Part shown: one piece after another, positions 29,698 to 40,645 of the stretch
Layout of the letters: each line of letters starts with the position of its first letter
How positions within the stretch are numbered: position 1 is the first letter of the stretch
IMG/VR virus record: IMGVR_UViG_3300008116_000067
Coordinates: 1 to 64,000 of that record
Length of the DNA: 64,000 bases
Direction: 5' to 3' (one strand)
Source of the DNA: a virus
Notes under the pieces: model-generated
The model's database searches: none
The model's input: only the letters and a program-made list of their open reading frames with translations
What the model was told of the DNA's origin: nothing
Program-made: the position numbers and the translations under genes

Positions 29698-30180
29698 ATG
29701 AATATAGATTGTTTTACAAAATTTTTATTTTCATATAAACAGAATAGGTTTATATTAGAAACACCTGTACATACTTATAATAGAACAATTAGTTTAAAAG
29801 AATATACTGTTCAAAAAGATGAAGATATGAGAATAGATTTGGTTATGGAGTCAATATACGGTGATATTAGTTATTATAAAGATGTTGATATTATTTTATA
29901 TATAAATGGTATTGATAATCCTTTAAATATTATGGAGGGTCAAATTATTAAATATCCAAACGTAGGTGATTTACCATACTTTAGATATACTGAAAATGGT
30001 GAAACACCGGACGATACGATTAAGAATGCGTTGGCGGTTGTTAATAAATCAACGAGAGTTGATAAAAATAGATCAAAGTTTGTTGAAAATGATTACTCTT
30101 TACCACCAATACTTCTGACTAAAGCTGATCCACCAGTAACTATTAATGTTGATAAAATAATAGTAGGTGGTTTAAAATAA
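29698..30180 (+). CDS. Baseplate protein with LysM/tail-X-like domain (gp53-like)
   Basis: 160 residues. YTVQKDEDMRIDLVMESIYG then LYINGIDNPLNIMEGQIIKYP is a LysM-like unit as in T4 gp53 and phage tail protein X. Such proteins clamp baseplate parts together. It starts 7 nt after the upstream structural gene and precedes a wall peptidase, which fits a baseplate module. Confidence 0.72.
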   Translation: MNIDCFTKFLFSYKQNRFILETPVHTYNRTISLKEYTVQKDEDMRIDLVMESIYGDISYYKDVDIILYINGIDNPLNIMEGQIIKYPNVGDLPYFRYTENGETPDDTIKNALAVVNKSTRVDKNRSKFVENDYSLPPILLTKADPPVTINVDKIIVGGLK

Positions 30181-30190
30181 TTTATAAATT

Positions 30191-31762
30191 ATGGCTGTTA
30201 TAGAAACTAAAAATTCTACGATATATTTACCAAGTTTTGGTTCAAATTACACTACTGATATTAGTGTAATTTTATTTTTCCCAACCGATGATGTTACAAA
30301 AACTGCATATACATCAATGATAACTTCTAGTGTTACAGATTGGTTTAATAAATATGTTATAGTTATTTTCAATGGTTTTAAGAAGTTATCATTTACTGGT
30401 AATTTTTGGACATCAATACAATCAGAATTTGTTGATGTTATAACTAAAAATAATTTAGTTGTTAATGATATAAGTCTATGTTTTTTTGTTAATTCATCAT
30501 CTGATTCATCATTGGTTCAGGAGAATATGAGTAAAGATGTACTTTCTAGTAAAGTTTCCAATTTCACAAATTTAATGTTAATCGATCCTTACCCGGAAGG
30601 TAAAATAGTTCAAAATATAAAAGATTTATCAACAAAAGGAACTAAAACTTATCTAATTTATAATACTCTAAATTGGAATGCGAAATTTAGTTTAAAATTT
30701 ACAAATTTATCATCTCTTGTTAGTTCATATAGTTTTAATCCAACTCCTATTAATACTAAGGATGTTAATAAAGATAGAAATAAAATAGTTGGTAAATTTT
30801 TCACCAAGTGGAAAAGTGTAATTGAATCAACGTTAATTACCCCAACATTAAAACCAGATCCAATAACAGAGAATAAGGGAAACAAAGAGTTTACTGAAAA
30901 TAAAACTCCTGAGAAAACACCTGAAACAAACTCAGATATAGAAAATCCGGTGAGTAAAGATACTGGTGGTAAGTTAAAAATGACATTTAATGGTATTGAT
31001 AATTCAACAGTTAATACATTTAGTATAAGTAATTCATTGGAGTTTCAAATTTTAATAGATCAAACTGTTGATAGTCAAAATACTGATGATTTTAGTGATG
31101 GTTTAGATGATGAGTATACCGAAACCGGATTTGAAGGGTTGGAAGAAGCTGGTATTATACTTACTCCTTTGGAAAAAGATCTTCAATTATCGGTTGCTGC
31201 TAGTCAAGAAGATGCTAGTACTGGGTTAACACCACCTGGAACACCTGCTAATATAAAACCGGTTAGTAATTTTGACGCTTTATTAAAATTAGCTGGTGAT
31301 TGTGCTAGAGAGTTAGGTAAAAATCCAAGAGTTAAATATGAGAATTTGAAAAAGGGTTATATTAAAGGTGTGCATGGACTTTGTCCTCAGGGAACTCAAG
31401 CTGTTATTTATGCGATGACTGGTGTTAAAAAGTTGGGACAACAATCAGGTAACGCTGATTATTTCTCATTTAAATATAACAAATCGTCTTTCCCATCATC
31501 TCATTACAATCCTAAAATTAAAGTTGGTAAAGATTATTGGAAAGATAAGTCTAAGTGGCAAGTTGGTGATGTTATTGCGGTTGGTTATACTGGAGGTAAA
31601 CCGTATGGTCACATTCAAGTTTGGACAGGATATAATTGGATGAGTGATTTTAAACAAAATGCTTTACAATCAAGTCACGTTGATTGGGACACACCAGCTC
31701 TTTGGAGATTAAATGAAAATGGTATTAAAGCTGTTAGTAAACAAATGGGGCAAATATCATAG
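30191..31762 (+). CDS. Tail-associated NlpC/P60- or CHAP-like cell-wall peptidase
   Basis: 523 residues. An unassigned N-terminal domain (about 1-220) and a low-complexity linker are followed by a cysteine peptidase domain (about 355-520): catalytic Cys in GLCPQGTQAVIYAM, His in GKPYGHIQVWTG, and GDVIAVGY before it. It should cut peptidoglycan peptides during DNA entry. The linker holds EYTETGFEGLEEAG, nearly the same as a linker in the GH19-bearing hub protein at 37877. Confidence 0.8.
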   Translation: MAVIETKNSTIYLPSFGSNYTTDISVILFFPTDDVTKTAYTSMITSSVTDWFNKYVIVIFNGFKKLSFTGNFWTSIQSEFVDVITKNNLVVNDISLCFFVNSSSDSSLVQENMSKDVLSSKVSNFTNLMLIDPYPEGKIVQNIKDLSTKGTKTYLIYNTLNWNAKFSLKFTNLSSLVSSYSFNPTPINTKDVNKDRNKIVGKFFTKWKSVIESTLITPTLKPDPITENKGNKEFTENKTPEKTPETNSDIENPVSKDTGGKLKMTFNGIDNSTVNTFSISNSLEFQILIDQTVDSQNTDDFSDGLDDEYTETGFEGLEEAGIILTPLEKDLQLSVAASQEDASTGLTPPGTPANIKPVSNFDALLKLAGDCARELGKNPRVKYENLKKGYIKGVHGLCPQGTQAVIYAMTGVKKLGQQSGNADYFSFKYNKSSFPSSHYNPKIKVGKDYWKDKSKWQVGDVIAVGYTGGKPYGHIQVWTGYNWMSDFKQNALQSSHVDWDTPALWRLNENGIKAVSKQMGQIS

Positions 31763-33463
31763 TTAATAAAAACATGTTAATATATTATCCCAAGCAACTT
31801 CATTTTCAAGAGTTTTTCCTTTCTTAGCTCCACTATCCATTACTAATTTTCTACCACCATTTGAATAGATACCATTACAAATAGTAATCTTTGTAAAGTT
31901 ATCAACAACTTTAAATTCGCCATTACTTCTAAATATAACCGAATATGGATATCCATCATCTATTGTTAAAGATATTTTCTTAGGTGAGAAAGATGCTTTA
32001 TAGAAAATTTCACCATCGATATTTATACTAGCTCCATAAGGATTTAATCTAGCATGAACTAATTTTAATTCAGTATTTGTTATTCCTTTTAACGATCTTA
32101 TATAATCAGAACCTGGTAGAGTTTTAGTTGATATAGAATCCCAAGCCTTTTGTGTTGAATCATCCCAAGCTCCTAATAATGTTGTTTTTAGTTTATTTTT
32201 ATTTGCCCAAATTTGGAAAGCTATAATATCTAATGTAGTTTCGAAGAATGTTGGTTTATTTGTATTAGAGGCTGTCACACCATTTGTTGTTGTTTGATTT
32301 TGAATTTGGCTTGGTGCTTGTTGTGTATTATCCTCAGCTATAGTAGATTTACCTTCTATATTATTATTTTGATTAGTTGGTATACTTTGTGAAGCTGATT
32401 GTGGGTTAGCATTTATAACTGTTTTTTCTACTGGTGGTGCTATTTTATTAGCTTCTACATTTTTAAATGCTTGGTCCCAATCATTTTTAGTTACTAAGGT
32501 ATAGCTAAATTTATTACCATTCATATTAACATGTTTCTCACAAAGACCAAAAAATTCATTTAAATCTTCTTCACTTGCAAAACATTGAGAGCCATCTTCC
32601 GACCAATCTCCTATTTTCTTACCACCTGGATATCCTAAATGTATACCAATACCAAAGTCTTTTGTACCATTATCATTTGTATCAGCTGGAAATGTTAAAT
32701 TACTTGGTATAAATTCAGGTTTATCAAACTCTTTATCATACCAAACTAATTGTTTGGAATCTGTATGAGTTAGTAAGGCCGGTGCTCCACTCCACTTTGA
32801 TAAAACGTAAACATCTATATATTGAGATGGTACTAAAATTTGAATTGCTTTAGTTTTAGGTTTTTGTACAACTTCTGTATTTTGTGGTCTTGATGTTTCT
32901 GATAAATTTTGACTTTTAGTAGTTAGATTATTATCTAAACTAGTCTTAACATCTTTTCCTATACTACCTAGTAAATTACTAGCTTGACCTTGAAGATTTC
33001 CTAATACGTTACCAGCTTGACCTTGAAGATTTCCTAATACGTTACCAGCTTGACCTAATAAATTACTATTTAGTAGTTTTGGTATGTCATTTATCTTCTC
33101 CATATTCAATCCACTTGCCTTAACTTTTGAATATGCTTGATCAAATGATGTTATATTAATTCCTGTGTTTTGTAGTTTATTTAATCCAGTTTGAACCAAT
33201 TTTAGGTCTATTGAGTTGGAGACTATTTTATTTGCATCAATATCTTTAACCTTTTCTAAATCCATAACGGAAGTAATATCAGCTCCTAAAGATTTTAGCT
33301 TACTTAAATTATCTAAAAGTTTTAATGGGTTTATTCCATTATCACTTAAAGACTTATAATCTTTAAAAAAGTTGCCTACATCAATACCTGATGTGTTAAG
33401 TGCATTTAGTTCAGTTGAACTAAATAGTGATGGAAGAAGGCTAGTAATATCTATAATACCCAT
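31763..33463 (-). CDS. Tail/spike-associated protein with GQAGNVLGNLQ repeats
   Basis: 566 residues. The N-terminal about 130 are helical repeats around KLKSLGADIT and NTGINITSF; then three near-identical units with core GQAGNVLGNLQ (about 133-165). A folded region (about 200-330, IQILVPSQYIDVYVLSKW..LGYPGGKKIGDW) resembles a peptidase or wall-binding domain. The N-terminus is related to the C-terminus of the gp5-like gene that ends 4 nt upstream, so they likely assemble together. Confidence 0.62.
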   Translation of the reverse strand: MGIIDITSLLPSLFSSTELNALNTSGIDVGNFFKDYKSLSDNGINPLKLLDNLSKLKSLGADITSVMDLEKVKDIDANKIVSNSIDLKLVQTGLNKLQNTGINITSFDQAYSKVKASGLNMEKINDIPKLLNSNLLGQAGNVLGNLQGQAGNVLGNLQGQASNLLGSIGKDVKTSLDNNLTTKSQNLSETSRPQNTEVVQKPKTKAIQILVPSQYIDVYVLSKWSGAPALLTHTDSKQLVWYDKEFDKPEFIPSNLTFPADTNDNGTKDFGIGIHLGYPGGKKIGDWSEDGSQCFASEEDLNEFFGLCEKHVNMNGNKFSYTLVTKNDWDQAFKNVEANKIAPPVEKTVINANPQSASQSIPTNQNNNIEGKSTIAEDNTQQAPSQIQNQTTTNGVTASNTNKPTFFETTLDIIAFQIWANKNKLKTTLLGAWDDSTQKAWDSISTKTLPGSDYIRSLKGITNTELKLVHARLNPYGASINIDGEIFYKASFSPKKISLTIDDGYPYSVIFRSNGEFKVVDNFTKITICNGIYSNGGRKLVMDSGAKKGKTLENEVAWDNILTCFY

Positions 33464-33467
33464 TTAA

Positions 33468-35381
33468 TTATAATAATTTTTTAATGTCTATACCATTTTT
33501 TGATAAGTTATTAATGTCAGATTTTAATTTAGTTATACTTAACTTGTTAGAAGCTATTTTTGTATAGTCTTCTGATGTTAACTTACTTAAATCGCTAAGT
33601 TTGTCTGATTCAATTCCTAATGATTTTAATTTGCTTATATCTTTTTCTACTTTATCAACATCCACTCCTTTTGAAGTTAAATCAGTTAATTTTGTCTTTG
33701 ATATATTTGATGATAAAATATTTTTAAATTCACCAGTTTTTCCTTGAGTACTTCCAATTAAATTACCAGCTTGATTTTGAAGATTATTGATTAAACTACC
33801 AGACTGACCTTGATTTAGTAAACTATTTACTTTTTGATTAATGTTGGAACTCAAACTGCTCAAGTTACCAATGAGTGCGTTACTAGTGAAATTCTCAACA
33901 ACACCATCTCTTAATTTAACATTATTTAGAATATTTTTTGATAAACTGTTAATAGATTCCATATCGACTGGAACTCCTTTACTTATAGCATTCTGTATTA
34001 ATATGTCTTTTATAGAACCTTCAATTTCAGCCTGTTTCTCAACTGGTAAGTTATTAACATATTTTTTACCACTATCTTTTAAGCTACTTAATACTGCATT
34101 TGTGGCAATGTCTTTATTTAAAGATGTTATTGGTACACCATCAATTACCGGTCCTCGTAATACGTCCTTAAATGTAACTCTCTCACCTATTTTATTAGAC
34201 CAATAAATTTTATCTAATGTGGATAAATCAGTTTGTTTATTTATCCAAGCTTCTGACATAGTAAATTCTACACCAGGCATTGTTGAGAAAATATAGTTTT
34301 TAACTCGCCAGATATCTTTGTCATCTTTATAAAGAACATATATTTTATCAACAAACTCATCTGTATATTTATCACCTGTTGCCAAACATTGATTTCTTAC
34401 ACCAATTATATTAAGTTCGTACGGTTTATCATATAACTTATAATTCTTCATTTTAATCAACTCTAACAATACATTAACGTCTGGGTGAACATCTGGAACA
34501 TCTGGTGCTAAATCGGCTGGTATAGGTGGTTTCTCAGCGTCTATCGGTGGCTTTTTAAATGTTGAAGATGAAGAACCATCTAATGGTACATATTTAACAG
34601 TTTCTTCGGTTGTTAAATTATTTTCTTCAACGGTGGATTTCCATTTATCGCCCTTTTGTCCATCACTTACACCTTCTGTTCTCTCTTGCATTTTAACACT
34701 ATCATTGTCAACAATATAAACATTTTTAGACAAAAGTTTTGGATCTTTTTGTGTAAAATATAATTGTATATGTGAAAGTAGTGCTGGAGTTGCTATTACA
34801 GGAGCAGCTAAATTTCCTAAAAAAGGACCACCTTGGGAACCCATTAATATTTGTAAAAAAGTATCAAACCAGTTTGTGAAATTATCACCTAAAATTGCTC
34901 TTTGTCCTGAGTTTGGAGAACCTAAATTAATTTTACCAAAATTATCTTTTAGATTAACATCAATCGTTTTTTCTTTAATGTTTAGATTATTGAATTTGTG
35001 ATCTATTTTAACTCCCTCTGATTCATTTACATATATTTGAGTTTTATGATCAAAGATCAAAGCTTTCATTGAAAGATAATCTTCGTTATTTAATTGTTGT
35101 AGTTTATTTTCTAAGTTTTGATTGTAGTGATCTGATGAAATATATTCTGGGTTGTTTAAGTTACCATTTTCAAAAACAATAGTTACTACTTTACCTTTAT
35201 CTGGTATATTAAATTGATTTCCATTTAAATCTTTCCAAGGAGATGCCCATGGTAAATCTTCTACTTTGAAGTTATCATAAACATCAAGAACTCTTATTTG
35301 ACATCTACCAATTTTCTTAGGATCATCATTATTTTCAACTACACCAACGTATGTTTTCTTAGGATCGACAGTTTTAGACAT
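33468..35381 (-). CDS. gp5/VgrG-like OB-fold baseplate spike protein
   Basis: 637 residues. The N-terminal OB-fold is clear: YVGVVENNDDPKKIGRCQIRV, LPWASPWKD and IPDKGKVVTIVFENG, as in T4 gp5 and gpV/VgrG spike proteins that form the central membrane-piercing needle. Residues about 130-180 continue toward a gp5C-like beta-helix. The C-terminal third is helical repeats (LKSLGIESDKLSDLSKLTS) shared with the following protein. There is no lysozyme domain as in T4 gp5; wall cleavage sits on other tail proteins. TATATA lies 4 nt before the ATG. Confidence 0.85.
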   Translation of the reverse strand: MSKTVDPKKTYVGVVENNDDPKKIGRCQIRVLDVYDNFKVEDLPWASPWKDLNGNQFNIPDKGKVVTIVFENGNLNNPEYISSDHYNQNLENKLQQLNNEDYLSMKALIFDHKTQIYVNESEGVKIDHKFNNLNIKEKTIDVNLKDNFGKINLGSPNSGQRAILGDNFTNWFDTFLQILMGSQGGPFLGNLAAPVIATPALLSHIQLYFTQKDPKLLSKNVYIVDNDSVKMQERTEGVSDGQKGDKWKSTVEENNLTTEETVKYVPLDGSSSSTFKKPPIDAEKPPIPADLAPDVPDVHPDVNVLLELIKMKNYKLYDKPYELNIIGVRNQCLATGDKYTDEFVDKIYVLYKDDKDIWRVKNYIFSTMPGVEFTMSEAWINKQTDLSTLDKIYWSNKIGERVTFKDVLRGPVIDGVPITSLNKDIATNAVLSSLKDSGKKYVNNLPVEKQAEIEGSIKDILIQNAISKGVPVDMESINSLSKNILNNVKLRDGVVENFTSNALIGNLSSLSSNINQKVNSLLNQGQSGSLINNLQNQAGNLIGSTQGKTGEFKNILSSNISKTKLTDLTSKGVDVDKVEKDISKLKSLGIESDKLSDLSKLTSEDYTKIASNKLSITKLKSDINNLSKNGIDIKKLL

Positions 35382-35385
35382 GATT

Positions 35386-35397
35386 TATATATTATAT
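35386..35397 (-). promoter_or_regulatory. Late-type promoter AATATATA
   Basis: TATATA 4 nt before the ATG of the spike gene. Confidence 0.6.
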
Positions 35398-35412
35398 AAT
35401 CATGTTTCTATC

Positions 35413-37845
35413 CTATTTTTTACCAAATTTTTCGTTGTTACTTGGGTATGACCATTTAGTATTTGACTTAACAATGTCTTCTATTTTTTGAACATTTTGA
35501 ATAATTGGTGCTGGATATTTTTGGTGATCTCCTTTATTGCTTATACCAAATCCGATTTTTGAGAAGTCTTTTTCACCAATAGGTTTCCAAATTAACCCAT
35601 TATGTTCACTTGGATTTGATTTTGTTTTTATAATATTTTCTAATGTTCCATAGACTTTGTTTTTCTCATTTGAGTTACCAAATTTAATTAAATTAATATC
35701 AGAGAACTTAGATTTCTCATCATAAATTGTATTGGTTGACTTTCCAAAATTTTGTGGCTTTAACTTATTAAGCTCACTGTAATTTGTTTGAAATGGATCG
35801 GTTGTTCCCATTAAACCAGCTATATCTTCTGTTAAGAAATTATTTAACTCTTTTCTAACATCAAACCAAGGACCAAAAGAGTTTGGTGTGTATGGTTTTG
35901 GATAAACATTTTTTGGACCACTTTCTAAACCACCTAATCCAGTTGATAGTTTTATTTTATTTATTGTATTTTCTAATAATTTAGTTCTGATTTTAATTTG
36001 ATTATTGATTTCACCAACTACAAAGTTTTTTGCTGAATTTAAAATTCCAACTGCAACCTTTTTTGAATTTGCCTTAAAGATGTCCAACTCTGTCATATTT
36101 TCTTTCTTAGTTGATTTTGCACCAGCAAATCCTTCATCATCACCCAATTGATCTGTTGATGTTGGTTTATTAATTTTTGATATATCTTTTAAACCCTTTG
36201 TGTCACCAATACCTGCTGAGTTTCCACTTACACTATTACCTCCCGTAGCTGGACCAAAATTAGATTCATCTTCTTTATCACCAGGTACTATATCAATTTT
36301 ATCTAATACGATTGCTGTAGTAACACCGTTGTGTCTTATTGTATTTGTACCAACAGTATAAAATCTTGGATTAGAAGTATCCGCTATTTTACCAGTTGTT
36401 CCACCTTCTTCGCTTTTTTGAGTACTTCTTTCTTCTCTAGCACCTTTATTACCAATTTTCCAAATAGCACCGTTATTATAACCAACATACTGACCAAAAA
36501 ATTCCGCATCTGGTACCCATCTTTCGTATTTGGTTGTTGAATATTTGAAATTCATAACAACATCAAGTGCTGGACCACCGTCACCATATGCTTTTATATT
36601 CGATAGGTCTATATCTTTCTCGTGTGACATTGAATTAAAAAACAATTGACATTCTCTTAAAGAATAAATATATCTGGATACGTTATCTTTTATTATTTCT
36701 AAAGATTCTTTTGATGGATTAGATTGAATTACTTTTCTAACTCTATTAAAATTTCTAACCTCACAAACAACTATTTCACAGTTAAATCTTAATAGATTTT
36801 CTGGTACTATATTTTTACCATTTGGTCTTGACCAATATAATAATTTGTATAAGTGTGCTAAAGTAGCTAAAGTACCAGAAACATCTTCTGTAAATGATAG
36901 TGTTAATTTATCAGTTCCATAATTCACAAATGATGATTTTGAATCAGGTGAACCATCATTTCTTTCTATTAGAAAGTCTAATCCAGCTACTTTTTGTAAG
37001 TAGTGTGATAGATAAGCTTTTTTACCTGGTCTAAATTCACCTTTTTGTGTTTGTGATTGTGCATATCCATTATTAGCTTTTGATTGTAATTCAGATGCTG
37101 GAGCGTCAGGTGAAAAGTAGATACTACCTTTGGTTTTAAAAATTTTCTCAAATTGTTTTTTAAAGTCATATAAAACAATTCTTCTTGATTGTACTTCACT
37201 TATAACACTGTAAGACCTTATAAAATCTTCAATAGAACCATTTAATAATGGAGAACTGATTGCATCAATTATTATTTCAAATCCATACATCACCGGGTCT
37301 TCATTTTCGTATGGTGTATTTTTAAAAGTTTTTAATCTATAATCAGTATCATTACTACCATCCCAAGCTTCTCTATCATTTTTCGCGGTTTTAATTGGTG
37401 TTCTACCATTAATTGCAAATCCGTGTCTAAAGTAGTCTTGTGATGAATCATTAAAAATTAAATATCTATCTCTAGTTGATTTATCACTTAAAAAAGATTT
37501 ACTTTCTCTAAATTTATCTTCTGTTTCAATAAATTTTCTATTTTTAAAATTAACACTATCTATATGAGAATCTAATAAAATTCCATACCAACCATTTGGT
37601 ACAGCTGGTGGAAAAGCTGGTTGTACACTTGAAAGAACGGATCGATTAAAACTGGAGTTTGGTGTAAAACCTGGTTTTTGTCTTACATTATTATCGTCAA
37701 CTATACCAATTAAACTAACAGGTGCTGTTGTACTTGTCCCATCTGTTCTTTTGATACCATCGGATAAAGAGCTGAACTCTTGTTGAAGAGATGTATCTTC
37801 AATCTTATCTTTTGTTAGAATATTTTTAAAAAATTTACCAGGCAT
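35413..37845 (-). CDS. Large baseplate/tail structural protein (810 aa)
   Basis: Starts MPGKFFKNILTKDKI. The region YGFEIIIDAISSPLLNGSIEDF near residue 185 is typical of baseplate or tail-tube assembly proteins of large myophages, but I cannot assign a T4 counterpart. The middle holds Gly/Ser/Asp-rich linkers. It sits between the gp5-like and gp27-like genes and should be part of the hub or tube junction. TATATA is 4 nt before the ATG. Confidence 0.65.
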   Translation of the reverse strand: MPGKFFKNILTKDKIEDTSLQQEFSSLSDGIKRTDGTSTTAPVSLIGIVDDNNVRQKPGFTPNSSFNRSVLSSVQPAFPPAVPNGWYGILLDSHIDSVNFKNRKFIETEDKFRESKSFLSDKSTRDRYLIFNDSSQDYFRHGFAINGRTPIKTAKNDREAWDGSNDTDYRLKTFKNTPYENEDPVMYGFEIIIDAISSPLLNGSIEDFIRSYSVISEVQSRRIVLYDFKKQFEKIFKTKGSIYFSPDAPASELQSKANNGYAQSQTQKGEFRPGKKAYLSHYLQKVAGLDFLIERNDGSPDSKSSFVNYGTDKLTLSFTEDVSGTLATLAHLYKLLYWSRPNGKNIVPENLLRFNCEIVVCEVRNFNRVRKVIQSNPSKESLEIIKDNVSRYIYSLRECQLFFNSMSHEKDIDLSNIKAYGDGGPALDVVMNFKYSTTKYERWVPDAEFFGQYVGYNNGAIWKIGNKGAREERSTQKSEEGGTTGKIADTSNPRFYTVGTNTIRHNGVTTAIVLDKIDIVPGDKEDESNFGPATGGNSVSGNSAGIGDTKGLKDISKINKPTSTDQLGDDEGFAGAKSTKKENMTELDIFKANSKKVAVGILNSAKNFVVGEINNQIKIRTKLLENTINKIKLSTGLGGLESGPKNVYPKPYTPNSFGPWFDVRKELNNFLTEDIAGLMGTTDPFQTNYSELNKLKPQNFGKSTNTIYDEKSKFSDINLIKFGNSNEKNKVYGTLENIIKTKSNPSEHNGLIWKPIGEKDFSKIGFGISNKGDHQKYPAPIIQNVQKIEDIVKSNTKWSYPSNNEKFGKK

Positions 37846-37849
37846 AATT

Positions 37850-37861
37850 TATATATTAAAT
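37850..37861 (-). promoter_or_regulatory. Late-type promoter TTTAATATATA
   Basis: TATATA 4 nt before the ATG of the 810-residue structural gene. Confidence 0.6.
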
Positions 37862-37876
37862 ATTTAACTTCTTTTA

Positions 37877-40645
37877 TTATGCTGATTTTGATATTTTATC
37901 AAAAGCTTCTAACCATGCTTTATATGATCCATTCACTTCATTAATTCCTTTTGTACCACCATTTACGGACTTTCTAGCTGCGGTTAAATCACCACTAATA
38001 ACCTTACTAAATGTTCTAGCTTTCATAAACTCTATAGCTATTTTATATGAGTTTTGTGGATCAAGAGCTAAGTCACCATTACCAGCCAAATTAACTCCTA
38101 TTCTTTTACCATATTTTTCATAATTGGCTTTACCAGTTAATTGTATCAGTCCTCTACCAAAATAAGGAAATCCTTTAGAGTCGGTACCTAAATTATAATA
38201 GTTCTTTTTACCACCTTTGGTTGATCTATAATAGTTTAATGCTGATGAACAAGGACCATTTGATCCATATGGAACGCCGGCTCCGGTACATGCATAATCA
38301 GCTTCCCATCTTTGTAATGAATATCCAGATTCAGCAAATGCTGTTCCTAATAAATAGGCCGCTTTTCTAACGTCATCAATAGAAGCGTCATTTTTAATAA
38401 AGTAAAGAACTTTTTTCAAAGAATCTTTAAATTTGGAATTTGGCTTATAATTTTTTGATACTAAACTAATCAATTTATCTATATTAAATGATTTCCATTT
38501 TCCACCAACATAGTTAGGACTATTAAAATCTATATTTAGATCATCAACTCTAGCAGTTGATTCTAGTGTTGGTGTTGAATCTGGTAATGATAATATTTGT
38601 ATATCCTGAAGAGCTTCTAATTGAATGGCTAATTCTTCTGATCCTTCAAATCCTTCTTCTACATATTCCGAAAGATCATCTTCATAATTATTTACATTTT
38701 CATATATTTCTCCACTACCAATTATTACAACTTCGCCTAAAATGTTATTATTCATAAAACCAGTTTTCTCAATATTAAATAAATAATCAGCATCAACTGT
38801 TTTTGAGATATATGTTCCATCTGATTGTTTCTCTATTATACTTAGTTTGGCGGTAACTTCAATACCATTTTCTAAAACATTTGTTATAGTAGCAAAATAT
38901 CTAACACCATTACTATCCTCTATTGTATAAACATCACCAACATTAAACGTGCTATTTAATTTTGGTGGTGGAGTTAATAAAGTAAATAAGTTATTTATAG
39001 TATCCGTTGGATTTGTATTTTCTGGATTTTTAACATCGGCTGGAGTTTTTTCTGCTGGTGGTGGACCTTCATTTATTTCTTTTGGATTTTTACCTAATTC
39101 TTTTCTAACCAATCTAAGTTCTTGTTTTAAAGATCTACCATCCCAATTGAAATTCATTTCAGATATAATATAATCTCCGGTTTTTCTCCATTGAATCATT
39201 TCTGGATCACTTGGTGATGGAACCGGATTAACTATTGTTACATTAACTTTTTGATATAAATATATTGAGTAGTTTGGATTTGGTAAATCAACTGTTAATA
39301 CAACTTTATTTAACTCATCTAAATTTATTTTATTTTGAGTTATCGCATAATTATAATTTTTATGTACATTATCAGTATCTATCTTACCACTATATGTAGT
39401 TGATATATTATTTTGAAAAGATTCTTTGTCACCTTTAGCACCTTTTAATACCATACTTGTAGACTCATCTGATGTTGTTGAATCTACATCAAAAACTAAA
39501 AATTCTTTTTTAGTTTTGTCATAATATTTAGTTTTAGTTTTATATCCTCTTTCCAAAGAAATTGATGTTGAATTATTTTCAAAATTCTTTTCTTCAATAA
39601 AAGAAGCACTTGTGTTTAAACTCTTATCTGAATTTAATTTTAAAGCTTGTATTTTATCGACATCTTTTATATCACCATTATCAAAAGATGATGTATCAAT
39701 ATATTTATCTTCTTTATTATTTCTTTTTAGTTCTTTCTCTACGTCAACATAGTTAAAACAATAGTAATAGTCTATAAATCCAACCATAAATGATTTATCT
39801 GAAATGTAAGAGTGTTTTATTATTTTATCTATAAATTGATATTGTTTATCTCCAACATTTCGCCAAATCATTTTATCATCGGTGTTAGTTATATTAGAGT
39901 TGAATCCTAATTTTAACTCTTTAGCAATTTCTCTAAGAACTTCATATGAAGTTCCTGTGTAAGGTTGATACTTTATTCTATATAACTCTGATATATCTAG
40001 TGTTCCATATATCGAGTATTGTCCTTTTGAAATGGCAATAAAGTCTTCGATTTTAAATTTTAAATGTATTGATTTTATATTTGGTGATCTTGAATTTAAA
40101 AAAAACTCAAATTTAGTATCATCTTGTGGCATACCAATATTTTTAATAATCCCGTTTGTATCATTAAATATGAATTCTATTACTGGTATTATTCCATTAT
40201 GACCTAGTCTTAAAAATGATATATCTCTATCATTTATTGGAGATCCCATATAATTAATAAATGGAGTTAAACCTATTTGAGAAGCAACTTTTTTATCATC
40301 ATTTAAATTTTGTGTATTTGGAAGTTCCATTGGTGGTAAGTCAACTTTTGGTTGATCTACTTGTGTTATTATAGGTTTTGGCTTTTCTTCAGGTTTTTTG
40401 TCTTCCTCTTCAGGTTTTGTCTTTGGTTGTTCTAACTCAATTGTTTCTGGTAGAACTTTTACAGCAAATTCACTAAACTCTACAAATGTAGAAGTAGTAG
40501 TTACTGATATAACATAATCACCTGGTTGATCAAATTTTAAATTCTTAAATGATACAGAATCATCTACTATGTCAAGTTCAGTTTCACCTATTAAAGCACC
40601 AGGACCACTTTTAACCTTTAAAATTACTTTACCAGTTATAGCCAT
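37877..40645 (-). CDS. gp27-like baseplate hub fused to GH19 lysozyme/chitinase
   Basis: 922 residues with an N-terminal Ig-like domain (1-90), a Pro/Glu/Lys linker, a hub domain (about 130-520) with the tail-hub phrases GTSYEVLREIAKELKLGF and DKIIKHSYISDKSFMVGFID, a linker with EYVEEGFEGSEE, and a C-terminal GH19 domain (about 730-920): AFAESGY with the catalytic Glu, FGRGLIQLTGKANYEKYG and AIEFMKAR. It couples the baseplate hub to a glycosidase that cuts the wall during infection. Two gene functions are fused. Confidence 0.86.
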   Translation of the reverse strand: MAITGKVILKVKSGPGALIGETELDIVDDSVSFKNLKFDQPGDYVISVTTTSTFVEFSEFAVKVLPETIELEQPKTKPEEEDKKPEEKPKPIITQVDQPKVDLPPMELPNTQNLNDDKKVASQIGLTPFINYMGSPINDRDISFLRLGHNGIIPVIEFIFNDTNGIIKNIGMPQDDTKFEFFLNSRSPNIKSIHLKFKIEDFIAISKGQYSIYGTLDISELYRIKYQPYTGTSYEVLREIAKELKLGFNSNITNTDDKMIWRNVGDKQYQFIDKIIKHSYISDKSFMVGFIDYYYCFNYVDVEKELKRNNKEDKYIDTSSFDNGDIKDVDKIQALKLNSDKSLNTSASFIEEKNFENNSTSISLERGYKTKTKYYDKTKKEFLVFDVDSTTSDESTSMVLKGAKGDKESFQNNISTTYSGKIDTDNVHKNYNYAITQNKINLDELNKVVLTVDLPNPNYSIYLYQKVNVTIVNPVPSPSDPEMIQWRKTGDYIISEMNFNWDGRSLKQELRLVRKELGKNPKEINEGPPPAEKTPADVKNPENTNPTDTINNLFTLLTPPPKLNSTFNVGDVYTIEDSNGVRYFATITNVLENGIEVTAKLSIIEKQSDGTYISKTVDADYLFNIEKTGFMNNNILGEVVIIGSGEIYENVNNYEDDLSEYVEEGFEGSEELAIQLEALQDIQILSLPDSTPTLESTARVDDLNIDFNSPNYVGGKWKSFNIDKLISLVSKNYKPNSKFKDSLKKVLYFIKNDASIDDVRKAAYLLGTAFAESGYSLQRWEADYACTGAGVPYGSNGPCSSALNYYRSTKGGKKNYYNLGTDSKGFPYFGRGLIQLTGKANYEKYGKRIGVNLAGNGDLALDPQNSYKIAIEFMKARTFSKVISGDLTAARKSVNGGTKGINEVNGSYKAWLEAFDKISKSA

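Follow-up and report, generated by a model that had tools for sequence, protein, structure and literature searches.

An acidic motif conserved in paired wall-hydrolase carriers of Mahaphage-like phages: a putative docking segment of the baseplate

The window analyzed in this study is a stretch of 64,000 of the 67,251 bases of the virus record IMGVR_UViG_3300008116_000067. Its baseplate genes are similar to those of LR745206 (634 kb, hereafter W01) and LR756502 (642 kb, hereafter W02). Genomes of 634, 636, 642, and 735 kb were reported by Al-Shayeb et al. (2020), and in the part of that article used here the largest of its genomes are assigned to the clade Mahaphage, whose predicted hosts are Bacteroidetes (PMC7162821). 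A preliminary description of the window had pointed out a glutamate-rich linker in two presumed tail wall-enzymes encoded on opposite strands, and both motifs were confirmed in these two genes, with 9 of 12 residues identical between EYTETGFEGLEE and EYVEEGFEGSEE. Each motif belongs to a small module that is followed by a wall hydrolase; we call the two proteins carriers. Slot 1 sits behind the hub and slot 2 behind a gene that we labeled gp53-like. The features of the two carriers are listed below; bit scores refer to a profile (A3) whose seed includes both window copies.

30191–31762, +, slot-2 carrier of 523 amino acids with an α/β-hydrolase-like N-domain, the module with the motif, and a CHAP-like enzyme
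30899–31156, +, module of the slot-2 carrier, residues 237–322 (profile match 50 bits)
31112–31147, +, motif EYTETGFEGLEE, residues 308–319
31391–31627, +, CHAP-like cysteine amidase/endopeptidase domain, residues 401–479 (Pfam CHAP E 0.041; PHROG endolysin 8.9e-6)
37877–40645, −, hub protein of 922 amino acids that continues into the slot-1 module and GH19
38624–38869, −, slot-1 module, residues 593–674 (profile match 49 bits)
38633–38668, −, motif EYVEEGFEGSEE, residues 660–671
37907–38386, −, GH19 domain, residues 754–913 (PHROG 181 E 1.2e-21; Pfam GH19 1.8e-8)

Statistics from the window alone were borderline: among its 63 proteins, a 9/12 match was reached in 1/6 composition-preserving shuffles, as was the BLOSUM62 score of 47. 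When the 67-kb record was searched with a 26-residue query, the second copy was recovered with an E-value of 0.0038 and there was no further match. In the window proteins, the module is not covered by any match in Pfam, PHROGs, or NCBIfam. The motif is nevertheless certain because the module recurs in other phages, and these comparative data rule out a chance resemblance, which the window statistics left marginal. The regions around the motifs, described earlier as otherwise unrelated, are only partly so, since approximately 60 upstream residues are also weakly alike. The motifs precede the catalytic domains less closely than described, 80 to 90 residues separating them from the Pfam and PHROG matches. 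The CHAP assignment is weak in the window copy and rests on relatives, such as the W01 homologue (CHAP E 0.0046). Thirty 12-mer matches of at least 9/12 identity were observed between window proteins; part of them probably stems from the GQAGN/NLQ repeats and "SKLKSLGI" helical repeats common to the neighboring protein at 31763–33463 and the OB-fold protein at 33468–35381.

To collect related modules, IMG/VR was scanned with three degenerate DNA patterns, and a re-scan gave at least 168 loci with at least 168 matches. Among the matches listed, 29 proteins were picked by eye as wall-hydrolase carriers or clear relatives: they contained a domain resembling a wall hydrolase or shared the upstream sequence. 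Removal of five identical modules left 24 distinct ones, which together with the window and W01 copies formed the 28 rows of profile A3, covering the motif and the preceding ~60 residues. The seed was chosen by the motif, and the E-values of its members are thus by construction. Most pattern matches were unrelated and were rejected, for example podovirus proteins with LVAKTGIVKRYYKNYY or EYEEETFEGLDE, which we take to be portal proteins. Many short contigs (L017, L019, L020, and others) encode a EYEEETFEGLDE or EYDEETFEGLDE protein, with no wall hydrolase after the pattern match. A3 was then searched in 44 whole records, a non-neutral sample, in three batches: 18 from the motif scans, hub similarity (W01–W06), and the window itself; 11 partly from the motif scans and partly from a motif-blind scan for the slot-2 N-domain; and 15 from an N-domain search. 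The module was found in 24 of the 44 records (13/18, 11/11, and 0/15), and was absent from the five huge or Flavobacterium phages W02–W06 and from the 15-record batch. A tblastn search for named phages with the module gave LR745206 as the sole clear match, a search for related loci with the whole window hub as the query gave no match, and a search of cellular genomes with the slot-2 N-domain pattern gave three chance matches and no relative.

The motif was conserved in related phages, with a few decayed copies, and its consensus was E[YF]xExx[FY]xGxx(E). In 38 carriers from 19 phages, E at position 1 was kept in 37, Y/F at position 2 in 38, E at position 4 in 38, F/Y at position 7 in 37, G at position 9 in 37, and E at position 12 in 38; 27 of the 38 had been selected by a search that demanded the motif or belonged to the A3 seed. 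Of the other 11, which were outside the seed and which the profile detected in the slot where a carrier was expected, 10 fit [ES][YF]xExx[FY]xG, the exception being slot 2 of G006 (EYQESPISIEDE). The motif-blind N-domain scan yielded 16 stretches, 6 of them not seen before: L206, L207, L208, and L210 had the motif (L210 duplicates L101), L205 was cut off although its genome, G012, has the motif, and L209 was decayed. A search for the hub gave 44 loci, of which 28 contained the module and 22 contained it twice. The new module-bearing contigs in this search were L274, L278, L279, L281, and L290, with eight modules. Four of these modules were decayed, namely both copies in L274 and both in L278; both copies were thus decayed in two of the three decayed-motif phages of the hub sample. 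The slot-1 open reading frame of L274 (11866–12603) stops directly past the decayed motif and contains no enzyme.

Two carriers were present in 20 of the 24 module-bearing records. Third A3 matches were a 96-residue open reading frame without an enzyme in G022 and a match with an E-value of 0.046 and no carrier in G001. A single carrier was found in G010 (at a contig edge), G011, G015 (a 15-kb fragment), and G016; the carriers of G017 and G009 are the same two proteins. In W01, the homologue of the window CHAP protein carries EFLETDFDGLDE, and EFTESGFVGEEE occurs in an M15 peptidase that this cluster encodes on the other strand. The remaining genes and domains of the cluster in the window are as follows.

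29698–30180, +, baseplate wedge protein directly before slot 2, a conserved neighbor (PHROG 1269 E 5.6e-5)
30191–30835, +, α/β-hydrolase-like N-domain of the slot-2 carrier, residues 1–215 (predicted structure, mostly pLDDT 60–92; Foldseek)
33468–35381, −, gp5-type OB-fold baseplate protein, flanked by the two slots (Pfam Phage_base_V 6.5e-7)
35413–37845, −, conserved 810-residue protein separating slot 1 from the OB protein (homologue in 19/20 clusters)
38834–38968, −, small C-terminal domain of the hub, about residues 560–604, candidate motif partner (co-occurrence with the module)
39077–40375, −, hub core, residues 91–523 (used for the hub comparison and tree)

The hub, which we take to be gp27-like, belongs to a family conserved among the relatives, and PHROG 1269 bears the name "baseplate wedge subunit". 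Pfam found no lysozyme domain inside the window OB protein, giving Phage_base_V only, and PHROGs named "baseplate hub subunit and tail lysozyme" matched only its first 83 residues. In 19 of 20 clusters, the helicase (presumably UvsW-like), hub, slot-1 carrier, 810-residue protein, and OB protein were kept as a set together with the slot-2 carrier, gp53-like gene, and TubeA, which usually converge on the hub-side genes. The one of the 20 without the baseplate cluster was L245/G016, a 281-kb record in which a lone carrier with a decayed motif (L245 9198–11090) lies outside any recognizable baseplate cluster. With G017 left out, 17 of 19 tabulated pairs were convergent, the starts being 5.4 to 9.3 kb apart; both carriers were on one strand in G006 and G022. 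Hub and slot-1 carrier form a single protein in the window and in G011; the latter lacks a second carrier. The carriers combine a wall-hydrolase domain with a location in the baseplate cluster, as do tail-associated peptidoglycan hydrolases; like these, they would be present in the virion and active on peptidoglycan.

The enzymes of the carriers were diverse. Pfam matches comprised GH19, CHAP-like, VanY/M15, GH24-type lysozyme, C39, and tail lysozyme domains, several of them below the curated cut-off, and a GH108-like enzyme without a Pfam match was recognized by eye. No pair had the same enzyme twice (by Pfam where matched, otherwise by eye) except G013, whose two M15-type domains belong to different subfamilies, one of the matches being weak. 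In G018, a tandem pair of peptidase domains (two VanY stretches) lies behind one motif in slot 1 (L246 5196–7868). The N-domains also varied: the α/β-hydrolase-like domain occurs in slot 2 of the window and G003 but in slot 1 of G001, most slot-2 carriers have an "RVR" N-domain, and G002 and G013 have an SLT domain in slot 1. In carriers with different N-domains and enzymes, the motif segment is the sole common part. Fifteen pairs of carriers had an upstream identity above 0.6 and a downstream identity below 0.35. The reverse pattern was also seen across slots, the best case being slot 2 of G014 against slot 1 of G018, where the upstream identity was 0.14, that of the motif 0.75, and the downstream identity 0.73. 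Between these two phages, the VanY and lysozyme classes have traded slots; in its second half, the motif is similar to the one that precedes this enzyme class in the opposite slot. Because the swaps break at the motif, it is also a cassette joint. The hubs of L277 and L278 are near-identical, whereas their slot-1 GH19 types differ, L278 having that of the window; judging from the sequences, this difference is a recent cassette exchange.

We compared the motif pairs (slot 1 and slot 2) within each phage with shuffled pairings, using 19 pairs, or 13 after dereplication, and p values without correction. The 12-mers of the same phage resembled each other more than shuffled ones (p 0.006 for 19 pairs and 0.003–0.005 for 13). 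The excess was stronger in the 20 columns upstream of the motif (p 0.0008 and 0.0002) and was also present after it (p 0.01 and 0.025); no excess was detected further upstream (p 0.32 and 0.40). At identical residues, no codon-level excess was detected, 103 of 173 codons agreeing against a fraction of 0.570 in shuffled pairings (p 0.23), which speaks against recent gene conversion between the slots. The resemblance without a codon excess therefore looks like coupling at the protein level, a pattern consistent with both segments adapting to a single partner.

In a tree of 40 hubs, the 24 motif-bearing hubs formed one group with support of 100/99, and its sister was the W02 hub, a motif-less fusion of a slot-2-type N-domain (E 6e-11), the hub, and GH19. 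Seven of the motif-less hubs had a C-terminal extension and nine did not; the latter show that a hub can be without the motif and yet have no fused enzyme. Another motif-less protein, L254 3801–7691 (the same contig as L299), comprises an α/β domain, GH19, the hub, and VanY in 1297 residues; two enzymes are thus joined on one hub. The small C-terminal domain of the hub was present at 26 of the 28 hub loci with the module and at 0 of the 16 without it, near-copies being counted, and this co-occurrence is suggestive of a candidate socket for the motif, no more.

Structures were predicted with AlphaFold2 (AF2), and confidence was expressed as the predicted local distance difference test (pLDDT). 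The window slot-2 protein (13 alignment rows) and the slot-1 C-terminus (12 rows) had a mean pLDDT of 53 each. The α/β domain was well predicted, and the CHAP part was below 50. The motif segments had values of about 27 to 42 with almost no or no secondary structure, and the acidic segment, whose net charge is about −17 per 62 residues, is probably disordered. Like a docking short linear motif, the element is short and conserved, and it lies in predicted-disordered regions (at low confidence) of unrelated proteins.

Taken together, these results suggest that the motif is an acidic docking segment attaching two exchangeable wall-enzymes to one putative baseplate partner, a reading to which we assign a probability of roughly 0.5. 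Binding to the same baseplate protein had been one of two functions proposed in the preliminary description, and it is the better supported by the fixed slots, the conservation of the motif despite exchange, the coupling, and the absence of the motif from hub-fused sisters; the partner itself is putative. Within a portable attachment segment of Mahaphage-like huge phages and their relatives, the motif would be the conserved core. Each phage would encode, within its baseplate cluster, two carriers consisting of a variable N-domain, a small module of predicted strands, the acidic motif segment, and an exchangeable peptidoglycan hydrolase, in this order. Both motifs may dock to the same hub or baseplate protein, and two enzymes cutting different bonds would ride at the tail tip and act once the tube meets the wall. 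The small C-terminal domain of the hub, apparently arisen on the branch of the motif, is the candidate socket; in sister lineages, which lack the motif, the enzymes are instead joined covalently to the hub. A more specific version, in which this lineage freed its wall-enzymes from the hub and on the same branch gave both a common peptide plug and the hub a socket domain, allowing enzymes of any specificity to swap between the two slots on an unchanged baseplate, is tentative and on balance doubtful. How huge contractile-tailed phages breach the wall and change their enzymes is little known. If the docking reading is true, the common tag would explain the quick replacement of wall-enzymes in these phages, offer a signature by which virion wall-enzymes can be recognized in phage genomes that lack annotation, and suggest a peptide–protein interaction in the baseplate.

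Several observations weigh against docking. The hub-fused carriers of the window and of L297/L301 keep the motif though they need no tether, and the motif-bearing fused enzyme of L297/L301 occurs without the C-terminal domain of the hub. A distance-matrix search for the partner singled out none of the candidates (partial r 0.35–0.42 for TubeA, 0.31–0.34 for the 810-residue protein, and 0.23–0.25 for the hub), and the C-terminal domain of the hub showed no charge complementarity, its net charge being about zero in 22 rows, with the window left out. In the new contigs of the hub search, EYxE was present in 8 of 8 modules and [FY]xG in only 4 of 8. The motif, the hub domain, and the separation of the enzymes fall on one branch and therefore amount to a single evolutionary event, which is suggestive only. 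The low pLDDT of the motif counts for little, since it comes from shallow alignments and is shared by the CHAP domain. Old homogenization or gene conversion is a possible source of the same-phage resemblance, 173 codons being few, and the carriers would be virion components by gene position only.

The breaks at the motif (15 pairs, and slot 2 of G014 against slot 1 of G018 across slots), together with the different slot-1 enzymes behind the near-identical hubs of L277 and L278, would also be expected if the two carriers had inherited one duplicated linker that is kept for cassette exchange and binds no partner. We regard this as unlikely, since conservation is at the protein and not the codon level, the N-domains are exchanged as well, and retention of E, the aromatic residue, E, [FY]xG, and E in 37 to 38 of 38 carriers (partly by selection) exceeds what a spacer or a homology patch needs. 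An intramolecular role, with the motif folding back on the module or blocking its own enzyme until injection, would agree with an acidic, conserved segment that is always beside the enzyme. However, enzymes with unrelated active sites follow the motif, which makes a common active-site plug unlikely, and AF2 shows no structure there (at low confidence); we consider such a role very improbable.

The second function proposed earlier, a cleavage site at which a phage protease would cut the acidic segment during maturation and free both enzymes from their carriers, is less well supported and seems rather improbable. It would suit a glutamate-rich segment of predicted disorder directly before the enzyme, and the sections used of two studies offer precedents: giant-phage head proteases cleave after A-x-E or S-x-E type sites (PMC5694885), and T4 gp5 is cut between Ser351 and Ala352 (PMC3004832). 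The T4 cut lies between the lysozyme and the needle. However, A/G/S-x-E at motif positions 9–11, the phiKZ/T4-type glutamate consensus, occurs in only 23 of 38 carriers and L/I-x-E, at any motif position, in 7 of 38, and the best-conserved residues (the aromatic at position 2 and FxG) lie outside such sites. The known sites are in head proteins, whereas the carriers are tail genes, and a protease site does not need same-phage resemblance unless the protease co-varies. The proposed docking segment is similarly set apart from the phiKZ and SPN3US prohead protease sites: both are short and glutamate-rich, but, as far as the cited sections go, theirs belong to head proteins, and their consensus is not conserved in the motif (PMC5694885).

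The known kin of this system are T4 gp5–gp27 and tail-associated lysins, from which the common tag and the free exchange differ. With T4 gp5–gp27, as presented in the sections cited (PMC3004832), it has in common a gp5-type OB protein and a wall hydrolase in the tail-tip gene set, and its hub may be gp27-like; however, the enzymes here lie outside the OB protein in two separate or hub-fused carriers, no needle–lysozyme fusion occurs, and many enzyme families are joined by a common motif. Tail-associated lysins and virion-associated peptidoglycan hydrolases are likewise modular, with a structural and a catalytic domain, whereas here one short motif is found on two carriers per phage and enzymes are exchanged from slot to slot. 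Short conserved tags on otherwise unrelated cargo are also known from the MIX/PAAR linkage of type VI secretion system effectors and from encapsulin cargo peptides. By description the motif resembles these tags, but its cargo consists of baseplate wall-enzymes and not secreted effectors. No description of a common tag on two carriers with slot exchange was found in the literature listings searched or in the sections used of PMC12619734, PMC7162821, PMC5694885, and PMC3004832.

In other phages, the α/β domain is C-terminal in ~1160-residue proteins (complete copies; L255–L270) that lack the motif. Foldseek matched the N-domain of the window to esterases and peptidases of the α/β-hydrolase type, with a best E-value of 9.6e-4. 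Compared by eye with its relatives (alignment A8), it has NSSSD in place of SGSGN, and the histidine of GHxxIP is gone. Because residues kept by the relatives seem to be lost, the N-domain of the window may be a non-catalytic scaffold.

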